DNA from: Celeribacter baekdonensis
Lineage (GTDB): Bacteria; Pseudomonadota; Alphaproteobacteria; Rhodobacterales; Rhodobacteraceae
Reading direction: 5' to 3'
DNA: 64,000 nucleotides
Assembly: GCF_900102315.1 (NCBI RefSeq)
Contig: NZ_FNBL01000002.1
Location: forward strand, 97,194-161,193
Shown one piece after another: positions 42,226-51,380 of this stretch. Numbering within the stretch: position 1 is the stretch's first letter; the number at the start of each line of letters is the position of its first letter. A program made the position numbers and the translations under genes. The notes below the pieces were generated by a model. That model saw only the letters and a list, made by a program, of their open reading frames with translations. It had not been told where the DNA came from and did not search any database.

Positions 42226-43020
42226 GTGCAACAATACCATGACCAGTTGAAAACCATCCTTGCCCATGGCGTTGACACCACCGATCGCACTGGCACGGGC
42301 ACCCGATCCTATTTCGGGCTTCAGGCCCGCTACCCGCTCAGCGATGGGTTTCCCTTGGTGACCACCAAAAAACTCTACCTGCGCGCCATCATCCATGAGC
42401 TTTTGTGGTTCCTTTCCGGCGACACCAATATCAAATATCTGCGCGACAATAAGGTGACGATTTGGGACGAATGGGCCGATGAAAATGGCGATCTGGGTCC
42501 GGTCTACGGCGCGCAATGGCGCAACTGGCCGGGCGGGGAGCGCGGCACATTTGACCAGATCACCAATCTCGTTGAGGCAATCAAGAACACCCCCGATTCG
42601 CGCCGCCTCATCGTTTCCGCCTGGAATCCCGCCGAGGTCGACAATATGGCGCTGCCGCCCTGTCATACCCTGTGGCAGGTCAAAATCCTGGGCGGGAAAC
42701 TGCACCTTCAACTCTACCAACGCTCCGCCGACATGTTCCTTGGCGTGCCGTTCAACATCGCCTCCTACGCGCTTTTGCTGCAAATGCTGGCGCAGGTGAC
42801 GGGCTATGAGCCGGGTGATTTTGTCCATTCGATCGGCGACGCGCATATCTATTCCAACCATATGGAACAGGTCGCATTGCAACTCACGCGCAGCCCCAAA
42901 CCGCTGCCGCGCATCCGGATCAACCCGGAGATCAAAAGCCTGTTCGATTTCACGTTTGATGATTTCGAGGTGCTGGATTACGACCCCGATCCCGCCATCA
43001 AAGCCCCGGTTGCAGTCTAA
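42226..43020 (+). CDS. thyA: Thymidylate synthase
   Basis: This 264-residue enzyme methylates dUMP to dTMP using methylene-THF; its length equals that of the E. coli enzyme. The nucleophile is Cys146 in [26 protein letters not shown] and [10 protein letters not shown] are the folate and dUMP contacts. The start is GTG 42226 (GGGGATAATGCC before it), giving [12 protein letters not shown]. folA follows after 11 bp, so the two form an operon that both makes and recycles dihydrofolate. Confidence 0.97.
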
Positions 43021-43031
43021 GGAGCCTCGTC

Positions 43032-43505
43032 ATGATCACGCTTATCGCTGCCCGCGACCGCAACGGCGCCATTGGCAGGGGCAACACCATCCCATGGGAG
43101 GCCCCGGAGGATTTGCGGTTTTTCATGCGTGAAACCATGGGGGGCGCGGTCATCATGGGGCGCAACACCTGGGACAGCCTTCCATTTAAGCCATTGAAAA
43201 ATCGTTTGAATATCGTGGTGTCCTCTCGGGCTGTCGATCACGACCATGTTTTTTCCAGCGTTGAGGCGGCGATCCGGTTTGCCCGCTCCGAACATCGCGC
43301 CCGCATCTACGGCATGGGTGGATTTGGCATCTACAATGCGATGTTGCCGCTGGCCGACCGTTTGGTGATCACCGAGGTCGACACAGAGGTCGAGGGCGCG
43401 GACACATGGTTCCCGACATTCGACCCAAGTGATTGGCGCGAAGTCTCGCGAATGGTGCTGCGCGCGGAGGGGCCGAAGTGTGAGGTGGTGGAATGGGTGC
43501 GGTGA
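43032..43505 (+). CDS. folA: Dihydrofolate reductase
   Basis: This 157-residue enzyme reduces dihydrofolate made by ThyA. The catalytic acid is Asp27 in WEAPEDLRFF, and IGRGNTIPW, VIMGRNTWDSLP and the NADPH loop YGMGGFGIY are in place. Start ATG 43032 follows AAGGAGCC at 43019. It is the second gene of the thyA-folA unit. The shape suggests trimethoprim sensitivity cannot be judged by reading alone. Confidence 0.96.
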   Translation: MITLIAARDRNGAIGRGNTIPWEAPEDLRFFMRETMGGAVIMGRNTWDSLPFKPLKNRLNIVVSSRAVDHDHVFSSVEAAIRFARSEHRARIYGMGGFGIYNAMLPLADRLVITEVDTEVEGADTWFPTFDPSDWREVSRMVLRAEGPKCEVVEWVR

Positions 43506-43660
43506 GCTTGGTCAATGGTTGAAAAATGACGCCACTGTTGTACATTTGGAAACAATCGCTCCCCAAACCATCAAATCCTTGCCGCAGTCGCGCAAGCTGC
43601 GTTATCCTTTAACCATAGAGATTTGCGCCCAAATTGGGCCCGTGTTCCGGAGTGTGTAGA

Positions 43661-43972
43661 ATGATGAAAACCGCGTTGACTGCCGCTGTGTTGACCTTTG
43701 GGGCGAGCCCGATGTTTGCCGCTGACACCCAGCCCTATGACCCCGTTGTCAAACATTTCGCCTATGAGAAAAACGTCGAAAACTTTTGTCCGGCGGGCAC
43801 GCAGCCGATCCGGTATAACGGCGTGGTGTGTTGCGGCGTGCCGAATGCGACGGGCTATGGCGACGCTCCCGTGAGCCAGCGGCGCTATGTCCCCGCGATG
43901 GCGACGAACACCACCGATCCGAAATCTCCGAGTTACGTGCCGGAGCGGATTTCGATGGGGGCGGGCAGCTAA
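43661..43972 (+). CDS. Small exported protein of unknown function
   Basis: This 103-residue protein has a Sec signal peptide (MMKTALTAAVLTFGASPMFAA, cut before DTQPYD). The mature part is short, has three Cys (FCPAG, VVCCGV) and ends in a Pro/Ser-rich stretch without helix. It has no lipobox. The ribosome site CGGAG is 8 nt upstream. It is a single gene, 155 bp after folA, with its own terminator. I know no family; a periplasmic redox or structural role is speculation. Confidence 0.72.
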   Translation: MMKTALTAAVLTFGASPMFAADTQPYDPVVKHFAYEKNVENFCPAGTQPIRYNGVVCCGVPNATGYGDAPVSQRRYVPAMATNTTDPKSPSYVPERISMGAGS

Positions 43973-43996
43973 GTCACAGAACCCGTTGTGGAATTC

Positions 43997-44028
43997 AAAA
44001 GCCCGCCCTGTGTATGGGACGGGCTTTT
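43997..44028. terminator. Terminator after the small exported protein gene
   Basis: AAAAGCCCG (43997-44005) pairs with CGGGCTTTT (44020-44028), and the inner CCC/GGG extends the stem. It has A and T runs on both sides and can serve the minus-strand SGNH gene, whose stop is at 44030, as well. Confidence 0.85.
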
Positions 44029-44029
44029 G

Positions 44030-44677
44030 TCATTCGGCACCATCCTCAACACGTTCCGAGAGGATGAAATCGGCCACAGCCGCGCCCAGCGTCTCATGCG
44101 ATTGCGCCTCAAGATGGACGCCATCGACCTGAGAGACCGACACCACGGAATTGGCATCAAACACCGCCACATCGCGAGCTTCGGCCACGGCACGTAATGC
44201 CTCACGGCTGGCCATGGCTTTGGCCTCCGCCCCCTGATAATGCGCGGTCAAAACGCCCAAAGCGCGCGGGGCGGGGGGCAGGATGAGAAAGGGTTCAAAC
44301 CCGCCATGACGCGCCTGCATCTCGTCGGAGAGCGCAACATCAAGGTGAAAGGCGGCGGCCTCGGCGATGTCTTCCGGCGTGGCGTCAAACTGCGCCTTGA
44401 GGTCATTGGTGCCCAGCATGATGGTCAGCGCATCAATCGGCCCGTGGCTTTCGAGCGCAATGAAAAGGCCCAAACGCCCATCCATATGCGGCCCCATTTC
44501 GGGGTCGGGAAAGGCAAAGGTGCGCCCCGGCAAGCCCTCTTCAATCAGATCCCATCCCAGCCGTTCCGCCATGACCACAGGCCAGCGGCGCAAGAGACGC
44601 GGCAGCTCGGATGGGCGCGTGTGCATCGGTTGAGTGCCATGGGTGTTGCTGTCGCCAAAGGTCAGGATCGTGGGCAC
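44030..44677 (-). CDS. SGNH/GDSL-type esterase
   Basis: This 215-residue hydrolase has block I FGDSNTHGT (Ser), block III LGTNDLK (Asn), and block V DGVHLEAQSH (Asp and His). It resembles small arylesterases; a substrate cannot be named. I prefer the GTG start at 44677 because GGAGG lies 5 nt upstream; the ATG at 44698 sits in the terminator of the next gene. No signal peptide, so it is probably cytosolic. Confidence 0.88.
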   Translation of the reverse strand: MPTILTFGDSNTHGTQPMHTRPSELPRLLRRWPVVMAERLGWDLIEEGLPGRTFAFPDPEMGPHMDGRLGLFIALESHGPIDALTIMLGTNDLKAQFDATPEDIAEAAAFHLDVALSDEMQARHGGFEPFLILPPAPRALGVLTAHYQGAEAKAMASREALRAVAEARDVAVFDANSVVSVSQVDGVHLEAQSHETLGAAVADFILSERVEDGAE

Positions 44678-44696
44678 GGGGGCCTCCAAAATGAGC

Positions 44697-44730
44697 ATAG
44701 AAAACGGCCCCGGAGTGGCCCCGGGACCGT
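44697..44730 (-). terminator. Terminator after the cold-shock gene
   Basis: On the minus strand ACGGTCCCGG and CCGGGGCCGT pair with one mismatch and are followed by TTTTC. It lies 23 bp after the stop of the cold-shock gene. Confidence 0.7.
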
Positions 44731-44752
44731 CAAAGATCAACCGAAAAATCGT

Positions 44753-44959
44753 TCAGATCGCTTCGAGTTCGGATGCAGAGGCGCGGCCATCACGACCATC
44801 GCGCAGCTCATAGCGGATTTTCATATTGTCGGCGAGGCCGGTCATGCCCGCGCGCTCGACGGCAGAAATATGAACAAAAACGTCCTTGCCGCCATCATCG
44901 GGGGCAATAAAGCCGAAACCTTTGGTGGTGTTGAACCATTTTACAGTGCCGGTGGGCAT
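44753..44959 (-). CDS. Cold-shock domain protein
   Basis: This 68-residue single-domain RNA/DNA-binding protein has RNP1 in KGFGFIAP and RNP2 in DVFVHIS, the standard five-strand barrel. The start at 44959 (MPTGTVKWFNTTKG) has GGAG 8 nt upstream; earlier ATGs are too close to it. The 5' region to the divergent ArsC-like gene is 241 bp and contains a TTGCCT/AGGCAA inverted repeat at 45088-45112, so a long leader, as in cspA, is possible. Confidence 0.95.
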   Translation of the reverse strand: MPTGTVKWFNTTKGFGFIAPDDGGKDVFVHISAVERAGMTGLADNMKIRYELRDGRDGRASASELEAI

Positions 44960-45200
44960 TGTCATCACTCCTATCATGTCATCCGCCACAACGTGCGACG
45001 GGCCGGTGCAGCCTGGTCTTCCAAGTCTTCCAGCTGCCCCGTAAGAAGGAGCGGTCGTTCTAGAAAGTCAGCAGTCACGAGATAAGTTTGCCTCAAGTTG
45101 AAAATAAGGCAAGCAACAAGTTTATAACACCGCGCACAGGCGGTTTTTTGAGCGGCTGGGGCTGTGGATTGGGCGCTTGGTGAATCGAAAAGAGGTTAAA

Positions 45201-45515
45201 ATGACGGTTATTTACGGGATTAAGACATGTGACACCTGTCGCAAAGCGGTCAAAGCGCTCTCGGCGGAGTTGCGCGACATTCGTGCCGAACCATTGTCCG
45301 CGCAGGACTTGGAGCGGTTTCATGCGGAGTTTGGCGATGCGATTTTAAACACGCGCTCGACCACATGGCGGGGCTTGTCAGAGGCGGAGCGGACCCGCGC
45401 GCCCCTCGCACTATTGGCCGATCACCCGACGCTGATGAAGCGCCCGGTGATCGAAAAGGACGGTGTTTTGTACCTTGGCTGGGGCAAGGATGTTCAGGCC
45501 GCTGTTTTGGCCTGA
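45201..45515 (+). CDS. ArsC/Spx-fold reductase family protein
   Basis: This 104-residue thioredoxin-fold protein has the N-terminal GIKTCDTCRKAVKAL (CxxC) and the C-terminal PTLMKRPVIEKDG of the YffB/ArsC-like group. Arsenate reduction is not implied; YffB-type proteins bind glutathione and their role is uncertain. The start ATG 45201 follows AGAGG. The last 22 bp overlap the end of the doxX gene on the opposite strand. Confidence 0.9.
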   Translation: MTVIYGIKTCDTCRKAVKALSAELRDIRAEPLSAQDLERFHAEFGDAILNTRSTTWRGLSEAERTRAPLALLADHPTLMKRPVIEKDGVLYLGWGKDVQAAVLA

Positions 45516-46033
45516 ACCCGGTTCCAGATCAGCCGATCGAGTGAGGCCCAGCCACCGCCCAAGCCGATGAGCACGGCAAATCCGAGCATCCAAAAGCTGC
45601 GTTGGTCCAGGATCAGCGCGTCAGATGCCCGGTCAAACCACGCCCCCACGGTGGCGGGATCGACACCATGGCCGATGACATCGGTGAGCGATTGCACGAG
45701 GACAAAGCCGACCATGCCGAGGGCTGCGAGGCGGGTGAACAAGCCGACAATCAGCAGCACGGGCAGAAGGATTTCGGCATAGCTTCCCGCCATCACCACC
45801 GCCCATTCAAACAGGCCAAAGCCCGAAATGTCATAGCCTGCCGCCTCCATCTTGCGTGGGAAGACTTGGGCGTAGGCATTGAAGGTTGGGGTGAACGGAC
45901 CGGATAATTTGGTCGCCGCCGAGGCCCAGAAATAGCGGGTCAACACCCCGGCAAAGGTGAGGCGCGCGAGCAGGGGGAGGGCAGAGAGGGCGAGGCTGTT
46001 GATGCGATCGAACGTGTTTTTAAGGTCAAACAT
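45494..46033 (-). CDS. DoxX family membrane protein, last gene of the RiPP operon
   Basis: This 179-residue inner-membrane protein has four hydrophobic helices in the DoxX pattern (LLARLTFAGVLTRYFWASAATKL; MAGSYAEILLPVLLIVGLFTRLAALGMVGFVLVQ). The gene overlaps the DUF2063 gene by 8 bp and so is coupled to it. DoxX genes often end operons of DUF2282-DUF692-DUF2063 (bufferin) type, where their role may be quinone- or redox-linked support of the modification or membrane handling; that role is unproven. Confidence 0.88.
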   Translation of the reverse strand: MFDLKNTFDRINSLALSALPLLARLTFAGVLTRYFWASAATKLSGPFTPTFNAYAQVFPRKMEAAGYDISGFGLFEWAVVMAGSYAEILLPVLLIVGLFTRLAALGMVGFVLVQSLTDVIGHGVDPATVGAWFDRASDALILDQRSFWMLGFAVLIGLGGGWASLDRLIWNRVQAKTAA

Positions 46034-46757
46034 GGGCTGTGTCCTGCGGTAAGGTGAGTGCTCCGCCGGTCAGCAGTGCGCAAAGAAAGGCCGAGAGGTC
46101 GAGTGCTCCGGGAGCGAAATTGAGCGCCTCGCTTAGAGGCGTCCCCGCGTTCAAAGCCGTCAAAACGGCACTGGTGCCGGGAGGAAAGCCCGTCGCCACC
46201 GGATCAAAACCGGCGCGGGTGATCAGGGCATCTTCGGCCCCGCCTGTGGGGTTTGACCCGCCAAGAGCGGCGGCATGAATTTGGGTCACCGGAGAGGCGC
46301 TTTCGATCCAAAACACCGAAGGGGCCAAACGCAGCGGGCGTGTGAACGCCTCTGGGTGTTGCAAGGCCTCGGCGGTGAGTACCGTGGCATCGGCGGCGTG
46401 ATAGCTTTGGCGCAGGGCGTATTCGAGCCGCGCGACATCGGGCAAATAGGGCAGGTGGCGCACGGGCTCAAACCCGGCCAGAAACTCGGGGAACGTCTCG
46501 CCGTAGAGCGCCAGTCGCGGCGATTTTGGTGGATGTGCGCGCAGGTAAACCCCTGTCATTGCGTCAAAAAATGCCGCGCCGAGCAAAGATTTGATCGCGG
46601 GAAAGCCCGACGAAAGCGCCTCTTTCAAACTCACCGCGACATTGTTGCGATAGACATTAAAGCGCGCAGCTACGGGGCGGTCAGACGCATCGGTGAGGCC
46701 CATCGGAATGGGGGCGTCTGGGTCAAGCACGGCGGCGATGAAGGCGGATTGGGTCAT
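46026..46757 (-). CDS. DUF2063 protein, partner of the MNIO enzyme (BufC/HvfC-like)
   Basis: This 243-residue protein begins with the DUF2063 domain: [10 protein letters not shown] and [30 protein letters not shown], followed by [22 protein letters not shown]. In MNIO-type RiPP systems this protein pairs with the DUF692 enzyme and helps bind the precursor leader. The start overlaps the DUF692 stop (ATGA) and the stop overlaps the doxX start, so the genes are tightly coupled. The C-terminal 90 residues are more variable and rich in Ala, Leu and Pro. Confidence 0.88.
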
Positions 46758-47638
46758 GCAGGCACCCGGTGCAACAGGGCAGCGGCACGGTCGGCCTCAG
46801 CGGCCAAAACCTTCCATTCGGGCACATCGGTGTCCCATTCGATCAGGGTCGGTTTGGCACCGCCGACGGACAAACTATGGGCATAAAGTGCCCAAACCGG
46901 GTCGGCCACTTCGCGCCCGTGGCTGTCGATCAACAAGGGCGCGCCCGTCTCATCTGCGTCCTCATCATGGCCGCCAAGGTGGATTTCCCCCACGGCCTCA
47001 TGGGCGAAAGCGTCAATATAGGAGATGGGGTCAAAGGCCAGATTGGTGGCGGAGACGAAGACATTGTTCACGTCCAGCAACAGCCCGCAACCGGTGCGTT
47101 TGGCGATCTCACGCAGGAAATCGACCTCCGCATAGGTGCTCTCAGAAAAGGCCAAATAAGCGGAGGGGTTTTCAAGCAACATCTGCCGCCCGATCCGATC
47201 TTGCAGCTCGTTAATATGGGCGCAGACACGGGTCAATGTGGCCTCGGTGTAGGGCAGGGGCAGCAGGTCATTGAAAAACGCACCGCCATGGGTGGACCAA
47301 GCCAGATGTTCGGAAAATCGCGCCGGTTGGAGCCAGTCGAGCAGGTGTTTGAGCCGGGCCAGATGGTCGGGGTCAAGCCGGCCTTCGCCGCCGATTGAAA
47401 GGCCAACACCATGCACGGAGATCGGGAACAGATCGGAGAGCGCACGCAGTTGTGCCAAGGGCCGTCCCCCCGCGCCCATGTAGTTTTCCGCATGGATTTC
47501 AAGCCATTCAACCGGGGATTTGTCGGCCACAAGGTTTGAAAAATGTTGTGGTTTGTAGCCGACGCCCGCGCCATTGGGCAGGGTGTCACGCCAAGTGTCA
47601 TGCCGGGTGTCGCGCCAGTTGTTACGGTGGTCCAACAT
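46754..47638 (-). CDS. DUF692/MNIO enzyme (BufB/HvfB-like)
   Basis: This 294-residue TIM-barrel enzyme is of the multinuclear non-heme iron oxidase (MNIO) family, which modifies Cys residues in RiPP precursors. Metal-binding landmarks include [66 protein letters not shown] and LIEWDTDVP. The start at ATG 47638 has GGGGGGAG 5 nt upstream; an in-frame GTG lies at 47683. It sits between the DUF2282-type precursor gene (68-bp gap) and its DUF2063 partner (4-bp overlap), the canonical bufferin order. Confidence 0.94.
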
Positions 47639-47706
47639 CTCATCTCCCCCCGAAGGTCTGTGTTTGACAAGAGGGTCCGGCACAGATGCGCCGAACCCAA
47701 CGCGGT

Positions 47707-48018
47707 TTAGCTGTCCATCGGCAGGTCGCGGTCCAGCGCCTCAAGCGACCCCATACGCGCCGCGCCGTCCATCATCGCGGGCAGTTCCAGTGTCAGGCAG
47801 GTGCCTTCGGGAACGAGGGTCCAGGCGTTGCCTTGGTAATCGACTTTCGAAGTGCCGGCGCAGGTCGTGCCCGGACCAGCCTGACAACCGTTTTCACCGG
47901 CAAGGGCGACGCCGAAACATTTTTCCTGTGCCCCTTCGGCAGAGGCCATGGTGGCAGTTGCGGACAATGCGGTGGCAAGAGCACCGATGAGGGCGAGGGT
48001 GTTTGTTTGAGTGGTCAT
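47707..48018 (-). CDS. DUF2282 bufferin-type RiPP precursor (BufA-like)
   Basis: This 103-residue precursor has a signal-peptide-like N-terminus (residues 1-27, cut near MASA-EGA), then a core with four Cys at 34, 45, 53 and 74 in the contexts [22 protein letters not shown] and EGTCLTL. This is the DUF2282 pattern of bufferins, exported peptides whose central Cys are converted to heterocycles by the MNIO enzyme and bind copper. The chain continues about 22 residues past the usual end ([20 protein letters not shown]), an acidic tail. The ribosome site is AGGGAG. It is the first gene of the four-gene operon. Confidence 0.88.
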
Positions 48019-48294
48019 TGGGTGTGTCTCCCTAAAGATCATGCGTTTCCGCCGTCAGTGGCGGTGAGCAAGATATGGCCGATGGGGCGGCTCACAGGCC
48101 AGTCACGGGGCTGTGTCATGACGCGCCTGTCAGGCAATGAAACAAACGGAAACGTGTGTTGAAAAGAAATAGAACAGGGCCAGTTCGCGCGGATTTGCGG
48201 TGTCGGGATGGCCTGAGCTGAGTAAAATCAGGGGGATAAAGGCACGCAAGGGGTGAAACATTGCTCACGCTGACGTTGGGGAAGGTGAGCACCC
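48019..48294. other. Promoter region of the bufferin-like operon; no gene seen
   Basis: This gap between the precursor gene start and the thrS terminator holds no convincing ORF on either strand. A short hairpin CCGCC/GGCGG lies at 48049-48064, 31 bp upstream of the precursor start codon. I see no clear sigma-70 promoter and no recognised metal-regulator operator by eye. Control by a metal or stress sigma factor would be expected from related operons. Confidence 0.5.
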
Positions 48295-48322
48295 AAAAAA
48301 GGCCCCACTTGCGCGGGGCCTT
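48295..48322 (-). terminator. Terminator after thrS
   Basis: GGCCCC (48301-48306) pairs with GGGGCC (48315-48320), extended by AA/TT, and a six-T run follows on the minus strand. It is 21 bp after the thrS stop. Confidence 0.9.
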
Positions 48323-48343
48323 ATTGTTTCAGGTTTTTGCGAC

Positions 48344-50293
48344 TTATTTCAAGTCGGGCGGGCAGGCGGCCAGCTTTAGCTCAGCCACGATGTCGTCCAG
48401 ACTCATCACAGCGGTCTGTTTTTCACCCAAACGACGCACAGAGACGGTCTTTTCGTCAATCTCGCGCGCGCCAACGGCCAGAATCACCGGCACTTTGCCA
48501 AGGCTGTGTTCGCGGACCTTGTAGTTGATCTTCTCGTTGCGGGTGTCGGCCTCGGCGCGCACACCGGCGGCTTTGAGGGCGGCGACGACCTCTTTGGCAT
48601 AGTCATCGGCCTCAGAGACGATCGTGGTGACCACAACCTGACGCGGTGCGAGCCAGAACGGCAATTTGCCCGCATGAGATTCAATCAAGATGCCGATAAA
48701 GCGCTCAAACGAGCCCAAGACAGCGCGGTGCAACATCACCGGACGGTGTTTGGCCCCATCCTGACCGATGTAATTGGCATCCAGACGTTCGGGCAGGTTC
48801 GGGTCGATCTGCAAGGTGCCACATTGCCAATCGCGGCCAATGGCATCGGTCAACACGAACTCCAGTTTCGGCCCGTAAAAAGCGCCTTCGCCCTCTTGGA
48901 TTTCATAATCGTACCCCGCAGCTTTGATCCCGTTAGCCAAATCCGCCTCGGCCTTGTCCCAGCTTTCCTCGGTGCCGACGCGCTTTTCGGGACGGGTCGA
49001 CAGTTTGACCTTCCACTGATCAAAGCCCAGATCAGCATAGATTTTGGCCAGGAAGGTGACGAATTTCTTGGTCTCTTCCTCGACCTGCTCATCGGTGCAG
49101 AAAATATGCGCGTCATCTTGGGTAAAGCCGCGCACCCGCATGATGCCGTGCAGCGCGCCCGAGGGTTCATAGCGGTTGCACGAGCCAAATTCGGCCATGC
49201 GCAGAGGCAGGTCGCGGTAGGATTTCAAACCTTGGTTGAACACCTGAACGTGGCAGGGGCAATTCATCGGTTTGAGCGCATTCAGCGTCTTTTCGCGGGC
49301 GTGATCCTCGTCCACTTCGACGATGAACATATTGTCTTGGTAGTTGTCCCAGTGACCGGACGCTTCCCAAAGCTTGCGGTTCACCACCTGCGGCGTGTTG
49401 ACCTCGACATAGCCATCTTCTTCTTGCTGACGGCGCATGTAATCTTGCAACGTGGTGTAGATTTTCCAACCGTTCGGATGCCAGAAAATCTGACCGGGGG
49501 CCTCTTCTTGCATGTGGAATAGGTCCATTTCGCGGCCCAGCTTGCGGTGGTCGCGTTTGGCGGCCTCTTCCAACATGGTCAGATGGGCCTTGAGCGCTTT
49601 CGGATCTTTGAACCCAACGCCGTAAATCCGCTGCAACATCGGACGGTCGCTGTCGCCGCGCCAATAGGCCCCGGCGACGGACATCAATTTAAAGCCATTG
49701 TTCGGCACTTGGCCGGTGTTTTGCAAATGCGGCCCACGACAGAGATCTTGCCAATCGCCATGCCAATACATGCGGATCGGTTGACCGTCATCGGGGATCA
49801 TGCCGACCAATTCGACTTTGTACTCTTCGCCGCGCTCTTTGTAATAGGCGATGGCATCCGCGCGCGACCAGACTTCGGTGCGCACAGGGTCACGGGCGTT
49901 GATGATGTCTTTCATCTTCGCCTCAATCGCGCCCAAATCTTCGGGGGTAAATGGCTCTTTGCGGTCAAAGTCGTAATACCAGCCGTTTTCGATCACCGGG
50001 CCGATGGTGACTTTGACATCGGGCCAAAGCTCCTGCACCGCGCGCGCCATGATATGGGCCAGATCGTGACGGATCAGTTCCAGCGCCGGGGCCTCATCGG
50101 ACATGGTGTTGATGGCAATCGTGGCATCGGCCTCGATCGGCCATTGCAGGTCCCAATGCGTGCCATTCACGGTCGCGGAGATCGCTTTTTTGGCGAGAGA
50201 GATCGCAATGCTTTCCGCGACCTCAGCAGGGGTGACGCCCTTTGCGAAGTCGCGTGCAGTGCCATCGGGGAAGGTGAGAGAAATCTGGGCCAT
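48344..50293 (-). CDS. thrS: Threonyl-tRNA synthetase
   Basis: This 649-residue class II synthetase has a TGS domain (residues 1-60, [16 protein letters not shown]), then an editing domain ([16 protein letters not shown], with the HxxxH pattern), the catalytic core with Zn-binding [11 protein letters not shown] (Cys about 341) and motif 2 [17 protein letters not shown], and a C-terminal anticodon domain. Length matches the family. ATG 50293 has GAGGAG 8 nt upstream. A T-rich element follows the gene (48295-48322). The upstream 343 bp hold a structured non-coding stretch on the other strand. Confidence 0.97.
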
Positions 50294-50415
50294 GTCTGGC
50301 ACTCCTCGTCAGTTTGGCGCCCACGGAGCGCCCGGTTGCGGGTTATGGTGTTCGCCCTATGTGAATTTATAGTGTGACCGAGTCAATGCGAAAGGGCGCT
50401 CATGACTGCCATAAA

Positions 50416-50594
50416 TGCAATGTGTGTGCCTCTGTCGGGGCGCAGGCCGGGGAGGGCCCGCGTGAGCAAGGCGCAACAGCCCGGCAATGTCCTGTGGGTT
50501 TGGCGCCGTCAGGGGCGGAGCCTGTGACTGAGCGAACCCCTGCCACTCCCCTTTGTGAGCGGGGGCGCTTTGGGCCAGCGGATTGCAAAGTTTT
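50416..50594 (+). ncRNA. Candidate structured RNA (6S-like?) upstream of a hydrolase gene
   Basis: The 343-bp gap between thrS and the next gene has no good ORF, is very GC-rich and folds well by eye. TGCAAT (50416-50421) can close with ATTGCA (50582-50587), followed by AAGTTTT. Inside are GGCGC/GCGCC (50470-50474 with 50503-50507) capping AACAGCCC/GGGTTT, and a separate hairpin CAGGGG/CCCCTG (50510-50515 with 50537-50542). GGGGAG (50449-50454) can pair with CTCCCC (50546-50551). A long closed rod of about 175 nt with an internal bubble is the general shape of 6S RNA, but I could not confirm family motifs. Motifs of tmRNA, RNase P and SRP RNA are absent. Strand plus is assumed. Confidence 0.42.
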
Positions 50595-50636
50595 CCCAGC
50601 CGCGATAGGCCTGAGGCAATGACGGAGGACAGTGCC

Positions 50637-51380
50637 ATGCCAGAGTTTTTAGACACCCCAAGCGGTCGCCGCATCGCCTATCATCAGATTGCAGGCAAGG
50701 GCACTGGCGTGGTGTTCCTGGGCGGTTTCAAATCCGATATGGAAGGCAGCAAAGCCACGGCTTTGCACGCTTGGGCGCGCGCAGAGGGGCGACCGTTTTT
50801 GCGGTTTGATTATTCCGGCCATGGCGCAAGTGCGGGCCGCTTTGAAGACGGTGCCATCGGCGATTGGGCCGAAGATGCGCAGGCGGTGATTTCGGCGCTG
50901 ACAACCGGTCCGCAGTTGCTTGTCGGCTCCTCCATGGGCGGTTGGATTTCGCTTTTGATGTGCAAACGGATGCCCGAACGGGTGGCGGGTCTCGTGACCA
51001 TCGCCGCCGCACCCGATTTTACCGAGGACGGGTTTTGGGCCGGGTTTGACGCCGATCAGCGTACCGAACTGATGGACAAGGGTGTGGTGCATGTGCCCTC
51101 TGAATATGGCGATCCCTATCCGATCACCAAACGCCTGATCCGCGAGGGGCGGGATCATCTGGTGCTGCGCGCGCCGCTTGACCTGCCCTTCCCGGTGCGG
51201 TTTTTGCAAGGCACAGAAGACACGGCAGTCTCCACCGAAACGGCCCTGCGCCTGTTTGATCATGCGCAGGGCGATGATCTGCGGCTGACGATTGTCAAAG
51301 GGGCGGATCACCCGTTTTCAACCCCGGATTGCCTGAAAACCATTGAGGCGGCGATCACTGATGTGCTGGCGCGCATTTGA
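50637..51380 (+). CDS. Alpha/beta hydrolase, acyl-thioesterase-like
   Basis: This 247-residue hydrolase has a nucleophile elbow VGSSMGGW (Ser102 by eye), with Asp in GTEDTAVS and His in KGADHPFST as the triad. The N-terminus LDTPSGRRIAYHQIAGKGTGVVFLGGFKSDM matches the ABHD10/palmitoyl-thioesterase-like bacterial group. The substrate is unknown. ATG 50637 has a GGAGGA ribosome site 7 nt upstream; upstream in-frame ATGs lack one. It lies just after the candidate structured RNA and may be read through from it. Confidence 0.85.
   Translation: MPEFLDTPSGRRIAYHQIAGKGTGVVFLGGFKSDMEGSKATALHAWARAEGRPFLRFDYSGHGASAGRFEDGAIGDWAEDAQAVISALTTGPQLLVGSSMGGWISLLMCKRMPERVAGLVTIAAAPDFTEDGFWAGFDADQRTELMDKGVVHVPSEYGDPYPITKRLIREGRDHLVLRAPLDLPFPVRFLQGTEDTAVSTETALRLFDHAQGDDLRLTIVKGADHPFSTPDCLKTIEAAITDVLARI

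Follow-up and report, generated by a model that had tools for sequence, protein, structure and literature searches.

A Buf1 bufferin operon of Celeribacter baekdonensis: a conserved precursor tail, two-cysteine relatives and a putative operator

What does the long C-terminal tail of a bufferin precursor do? The question is raised by a four-gene operon (bufA, bufB, bufC, doxX) on the complement strand of a 64,000-nucleotide stretch of the Celeribacter baekdonensis genome (contig NZ_FNBL01000002.1, positions 97,194 to 161,193), from now on referred to as the window. The precursor BufA has cysteines at positions 34, 45, 53 and 74, in agreement with the four cysteines, Cys45 and Cys53 among them, of a first-pass annotation of this DNA, and its tail extends 29 residues beyond Cys74. 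All four cysteines are invariant across a 25-row alignment, and by analogy with characterised relatives the central Cys45 and Cys53 are the likely targets of modification by the MNIO enzyme BufB. We consider it likely that the locus is a Buf1 operon with a promoter of its own, regulated through an operator, and that the tail belongs to the folded mature peptide instead of serving the MNIO enzyme as a follower. The tail is assigned to the fold because it is kept in relatives in which both target cysteines are gone and no MNIO was found.

The precursor tail and its two-cysteine relatives

The tail (codons 75-103, 47710..47796, minus strand) carries the family motif LP..xxDG..RxGSLExLxRDLP. The first-pass annotation had described about 22 unusual acidic residues beyond the common end of the core. 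An extra stretch does exist, but the wording was loose, as Ala81-103 (23 residues) holds five Asp/Glu and two Arg when counted by eye, and the stretch is the family norm. The family sample comprised 149 genomes including the window's own, of which 106 had a DUF2282 match; leaving out the window's own, 107 precursors were obtained from 105 loci, one per matching genome. A simple pattern for an RDxP-type tail was found in 99 of the 107 precursors, which rules out a tail peculiar to this genome, and 67 of the 107 have 27-28 residues past the last cysteine. The eight off-pattern precursors comprise six with 15-17 residues past the last cysteine and two, from loci L109 (22 residues) and L104 (27 residues), that miss only at the end of the pattern. 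The RDxP type was also present in 24 of 28 precursors (27 loci) of an order-level sample that proved to belong wholly to the same family as the window. A class-level sample, covering 30 of 79 places and including one locus from the window's family (L163), yielded 30 precursors with tails of 9-27 residues, all of which fit a loose G-S-L-like or RDxP pattern; the RDxP type occurs in five of them, one from the window's family. The tail is thus a conserved, lineage-typical family trait. Based on this family and class-level comparison, the window's tail reads, like that of most of the family, as the general short end extended by the insert LPAMxDGxx and by LxRDLP at its terminus. Literature searches turned up nothing on the tail, on the two-cysteine proteins described below or on the operator.

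A lone DUF2282 gene, found in one of the 105 family loci, led to an Amaricoccus-type genus, 10 of whose 11 genomes carry a gene for a DUF2282 protein that lacks both central (MNIO-target) cysteines. The remaining genome (G390) has no DUF2282 match, and one of the ten (G391) carries a four-Cys copy beside the two-Cys one. The two-Cys loci are L209, L210, L211, L219 and L220, which have named records, together with L198-L207; the named records match five of the ten genomes, namely four Amaricoccus and 'Rhodobacteraceae bacterium DSL-40'. A genome-wide search found no MNIO in 10 of the 11 genomes of the genus and in 0 of its nine good-quality genomes, eight of which carry the two-Cys gene. The 80 named loci hold 81 precursors. 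An MNIO gene lies in the locus for 75 four-Cys precursors and for none of the five two-Cys ones; the one further four-Cys precursor, situated near a contig end, also has no MNIO in its locus, and some of the two-Cys loci are likewise shortened by contig ends. The two-Cys proteins have a shorter region between the outer cysteines and keep a C[YF]G motif, a D[YFW]QG[ND]A[WF] motif and the tail, in which L79, P80, D84, G85, R88, G90, L95, R97 and D98 are each at least 96% conserved in 53 four-Cys rows and 100% conserved in five two-Cys rows. Genes that we take to be DsbB-like lie at 2244-2717 in L104 and at 5954-6502 in L220, about 2 kb or less from the two-Cys bufferin gene in each case, and might matter for the disulfide.

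The tail is the best-conserved part of the two-Cys proteins. Mean pairwise identity among ten of them is 0.65 for the tail, 0.59 for the core and 0.32 for the signal region. The corresponding values are 0.66, 0.88 and 0.46 for 76 named four-Cys proteins and 0.53, 0.85 and 0.46 for 106 four-Cys proteins of the family, while the 100 least alike four-Cys pairs gave 0.57, 0.74 and 0.41 and shuffled sequences 0.24-0.30. The core and signal of the two-Cys proteins are therefore less similar to one another than in the family as a whole, which does not hold for the tail. The proportion of nonsynonymous differences (pN) is below that of synonymous differences (pS) in all 45 two-Cys pairs when the core is compared, in 43 for the tail and in 31 for the signal. 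With pS as high as 0.5-0.6, pN and pS were compared without forming a ratio.

Several points weigh against this use of the two-Cys proteins. Two genomes of lower completeness hold traces of an MNIO: G387 (85% complete) gave a partial match to MNIO, located on another contig, and in G391 (86% complete) the contig carrying the four-Cys precursor breaks off shortly after the start of a likely MNIO gene, which the MNIO search had missed. The 76 named four-Cys proteins had been ordered by their similarity to a two-Cys query, which favours similar tails, and tail identity is lower (0.53, as given above) in the family sample, to which no such ranking applied. The two-Cys set also represents a single genus compared with four-Cys proteins of many genera, and the tail may have been kept there because it took on a new function.

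Fold, docking signal or follower

Taken together, the comparison argues for a structural or other enzyme-independent role of the tail over a follower role, and we regard the tail as probably part of the mature fold. AlphaFold2 models lend weak support. In the model of the mature protein, the blocks holding most of the tail reach predicted local distance difference test (pLDDT) values of 84, 70 and 72, the two target-Cys blocks only 61 and 52, and a few tail residues are bridge residues. Here too there are contrary points: the last six tail residues have a pLDDT of 44 in the mature model, overall confidence is middling (mean pLDDT 65.9 for the full-length and 67.0 for the mature protein, predicted TM-scores 0.49 and 0.54) with four of the five full-length models below 52, and a fold search of the full-length model against the PDB returned 0 matches with E <= 0.001. 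At the sequence level, the precursor gave a single chance-level match in the PDB (E 0.12).

Alternatively, another partner in the periplasm (DoxX, a copper exporter or a protease, for instance) could use the tail as a docking or sorting signal. In favour of this, the tail is conserved and charged, it exceeds in length those of most other alphaproteobacterial precursors examined, and DoxX is nearly always encoded in the operon. However, the two-Cys proteins keep the tail although the loci retrieved for them, some of limited length, showed no DoxX (DoxX and DUF2063 were looked for in the loci only), and seven family loci with tails of at least 22 residues have no detected DoxX, one of these being cut by a contig end and one being a two-Cys locus. 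We regard a docking role as unlikely.

A follower role appears more doubtful still. The tail would then act as a follower of a ribosomally synthesized and post-translationally modified peptide (RiPP), bound by BufB-BufC or by a RiPP recognition element (RRE) domain of BufC so as to position the central cysteines. The charged end LxRDLP is indeed conserved in the 99 family precursors mentioned above, nearly all of which stand beside MNIO genes. It is, however, also kept in the two-Cys proteins of genomes without a detected MNIO, and the six short-tailed family precursors all adjoin MNIO and DUF2063 genes, so that a long tail is not needed by the enzyme pair in general. This indirect evidence speaks against a follower, the more so because passages on bufferins (PMC12452194, Discussion, given there as preliminary results) and on HvfA (PMC13419390) assign a part in recognition to the signal peptide. 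Of the two roles for the tail left side by side by the first-pass annotation, a follower or a folding tail, the second is thus the one that is favoured.

That the two-Cys proteins are decaying remnants, and hence uninformative on the tail, would fit the loss of the central cysteines, the genomes without a detected MNIO and the operator, which was found in 0 of the 17 two-Cys loci searched (a set that includes the four-Cys locus L197 and second copies of some genes), but is very improbable given a gene present in 10 of 11 genomes, pN below pS in nearly all core and tail pairs, and outer cysteines, DYQG[ND]AW-like motif and tail that are all kept.

The operon and its upstream region

The operon that encodes this tail is an ordinary Buf1 bufferin operon by analogy, whose exported peptide is probably copper-binding. 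The first-pass annotation had the gene content, the coordinates and the bufferin identity right, and all four Pfam scores are above their cut-offs. On the minus strand, bufA (47707..48018) encodes the 103-residue DUF2282 precursor (78.4 bits, cut-off 22.4), and bufB (46754..47638 from an ATG start, with an alternative GTG start at 47683) encodes the MNIO bufferin maturase (MbnB_TglH_ChrH, PF05114, 341.2 bits, cut-off 25). They are followed by bufC (46026..46757), whose 243-residue product is the DUF2063 (PME-type 1) partner (PF09836, 91.7 bits, cut-off 27.2), and by doxX (45494..46033), encoding a DoxX-family membrane protein of 179 residues (PF07681, 34.6 bits, cut-off 23.6). The bufB and bufC genes overlap by 4 bp (46754-46757) and bufC and doxX by 8 bp (46026-46033); there is no overlap between bufA and bufB, which are 68 bp apart if bufB starts at its ATG. 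BufB scores above the cut-off of the NCBIfam BufB equivalog NF050167 (371.4 vs 310 bits), and its closest PDB sequence match is 3bww; the BufC sequence gave 0 PDB matches with E <= 0.001. Genome-wide searches returned one match apiece for DUF2282, MNIO and DUF2063 in the window's genome. Codons 1-27 of bufA (47938..48018, minus strand) form a putative Sec-type signal peptide, judged by eye from its hydrophobic stretch and A-x-A end, and by analogy likely double as the leader recognised by BufB-BufC. The gene upstream of the operon is presumably thrS, and a terminator-like hairpin after it (48299..48322, minus strand) separates it from the operon. At the other end lies a convergent gene, ArsC/Spx-like as we take it (45177-45515), which shares 22 bp with the 3' end of doxX.

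DoxX had been singled out as an unusual partner in this operon, a view that does not hold. It is a core gene of bufferin clusters, along with the precursor, MNIO and DUF2063 genes, in a passage of a survey from 2025 (PMC12452194), it is part of the four-gene operon CC3254-CC3257 as described in a section on Caulobacter (PMC3511200), and a passage on the Haemophilus hvf operon lists the DoxX-like HvfX (PMC13419390). In the family sample, all four genes stand in the same order in 95 of the 105 loci, 93 with exactly four genes and two with a second bufA. DoxX was not detected in seven loci, and DUF2063 and DoxX were both not detected in two, one of which is cut by a contig end; as the genes were called by phmmer with the window's proteins, diverged DoxX or DUF2063 proteins may have escaped. 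In L061, a tandem bufA pair with a diverged second copy was observed, and the MNIO match is split into two pieces.

Upstream of bufA, a putative operator (48098..48133, minus strand) consists of two tandem palindromes of the form TNAC-N6-GTNA, with a spacing 1 bp wider than the family norm. It corresponds to a family element, cTgACgc...CGTGA..CACGg.c.cGTGA.TgG, for which a weight matrix gave 15 bits or more in 128 of 177 upstream regions compared with 0 of 885 Markov sequences, the matrix having been trained on the same regions with the window's left out. A spacing-free matrix reached at least 12 bits in 78 of 104 family loci vs 0 of 438 random stretches from the same loci. The ungapped matrix missed the window's site because of the wider spacer; the site scores 37.2 bits once this spacing is allowed and was found by an insertion-tolerant model (cmsearch 16.4 bits, E 0.00086 within the window). 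It ranks first of the two genome-wide matches with E <= 1 (E 0.06 and 0.54). When 31 genomes were searched, including 19 of the window's genus (its own among them) and scoring at most 150 candidates per genome, 14 of 15 nearly full-length matches stood before bufA, all 14 in the window's genus; neither the remaining match (12.9 bits) nor any of the other 14 loci examined did so. A double-palindrome operator upstream of bufA in this family would be new here.

A -10-like element, CATATCTT (48070..48077, minus strand), follows the operator by about 20 bp and appears to match the position of a weak YTAGGGTTT-like consensus that stands 21-29 bp past the site in 136 site-bearing regions. Because of this spacing the operator would lie close to -35, a frequent location of activator sites. 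The presumed 5' untranslated region contains a CCGCC/GGCGG hairpin (48049..48064, minus strand) with a folding energy of -10.9 kcal/mol, and hairpins of -5 kcal/mol or lower were predicted in 102 of 133 regions (window included) compared with 53.3 for mononucleotide shuffles. DoxX was detected in 77 of 78 loci with the operator vs 17 of 26 loci lacking the operator (Fisher p 9.5e-6), an association uncorrected for kinship and not used as evidence here.

Known systems and the meaning of the two-cysteine bufferins

The closest likeness is to the Buf1 system of Caulobacter vibrioides (CC3254-CC3257), which shares the DUF2282-DUF692-DUF2063-DoxX order, the four cysteines, a signal-like N-terminus and a BufB-type MNIO. 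The window's precursor differs in its longer C-terminal tail, common to most of its family, and its upstream element is a double palindrome, whereas a sigma-F sequence, GTAACC-N16-CGAA, is given for Caulobacter in a section of PMC3511200. A sigma-F-type promoter was rejected for the window's family: TGTAAC-like words are enriched upstream, but no fixed position could be seen by eye. Inspection by eye of the open reading frames at 43000-51000 showed no sigma-factor gene, and no search was aimed at one. Likeness to the gig operons (gold-induced genes) of Cupriavidus and Legionella rests on their classification as bufferin clusters in a passage of PMC12452194. The Haemophilus HvfABC-HvfX/oxazolin system (proposed class captophorins) likewise combines an MNIO, an RRE-bearing partner (the RRE being putative in BufC), a DoxX-like protein and a signal peptide, and published work reports 5-thiooxazoles in it. 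Membership of the oxazolin/HvfABC group was rejected, as the window's precursor has no EGKCG-type repeats and BufB (225.8 vs 360 bits) and BufC (42.5 vs 142 bits, NF050145) fall below the HvfB and HvfC cut-offs.

The operator was also compared with CopR/CusR boxes, given in a passage of PMC11195947 as TGACAA-N2-TTGTCA in E. coli and CTGACA-N5-GTAAT for Pseudomonas CopR. Box 1 of the window (CTGACA-GGCGC-GTCAT) comes close to these in its half-sites and has an identical spacing; however, the window's site consists of two tandem palindromes, and a regulator above the TIGR01387 cut-off was found in 0 of 29 genomes, the best match in the window's genome scoring 186.9 vs 279.2 bits. CopR/CusR was thus rejected as a proven regulator.

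Following characterised relatives, the complex of BufB and BufC would read the Sec signal peptide as a leader in the cytoplasm and oxidise Cys45 and Cys53 to 5-thiooxazoles. The modified peptide would then be exported by Sec, Cys34 and Cys74 would form a disulfide after export, and the folded peptide would sequester copper in the periplasm, with DoxX as a presumed membrane accessory. Both the heterocycles and the copper function are inferred by homology. Transcription would be controlled by a regulator binding the double-palindrome operator near -35, and the operator offers a handle for finding the regulator of bufferin operons.

The operon itself is ordinary, and the greater interest lies in its two-Cys relatives. 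The Discussion of PMC12452194 raises the question of whether bufferins in genomes without MNIO genes are active without modification, and a genus with conserved two-Cys bufferins in which MNIO was not detected represents a natural experiment on that question. It separates the parts tied to modification, the central cysteines and the signal, from the others, the outer cysteines and the tail. We tentatively propose, as a possibility that falls somewhat short of even, that bufferins of the Amaricoccus lineage are now enzyme-free, the thiooxazole cysteines, the MNIO gene and the operator having been lost and the disulfide pair and tail selectively kept. If so, tail and scaffold would serve a separate function in the periplasm for which modification is not needed, and the Rhodobacteraceae bufferin, including that of the window, would combine two functions under a dedicated regulator.

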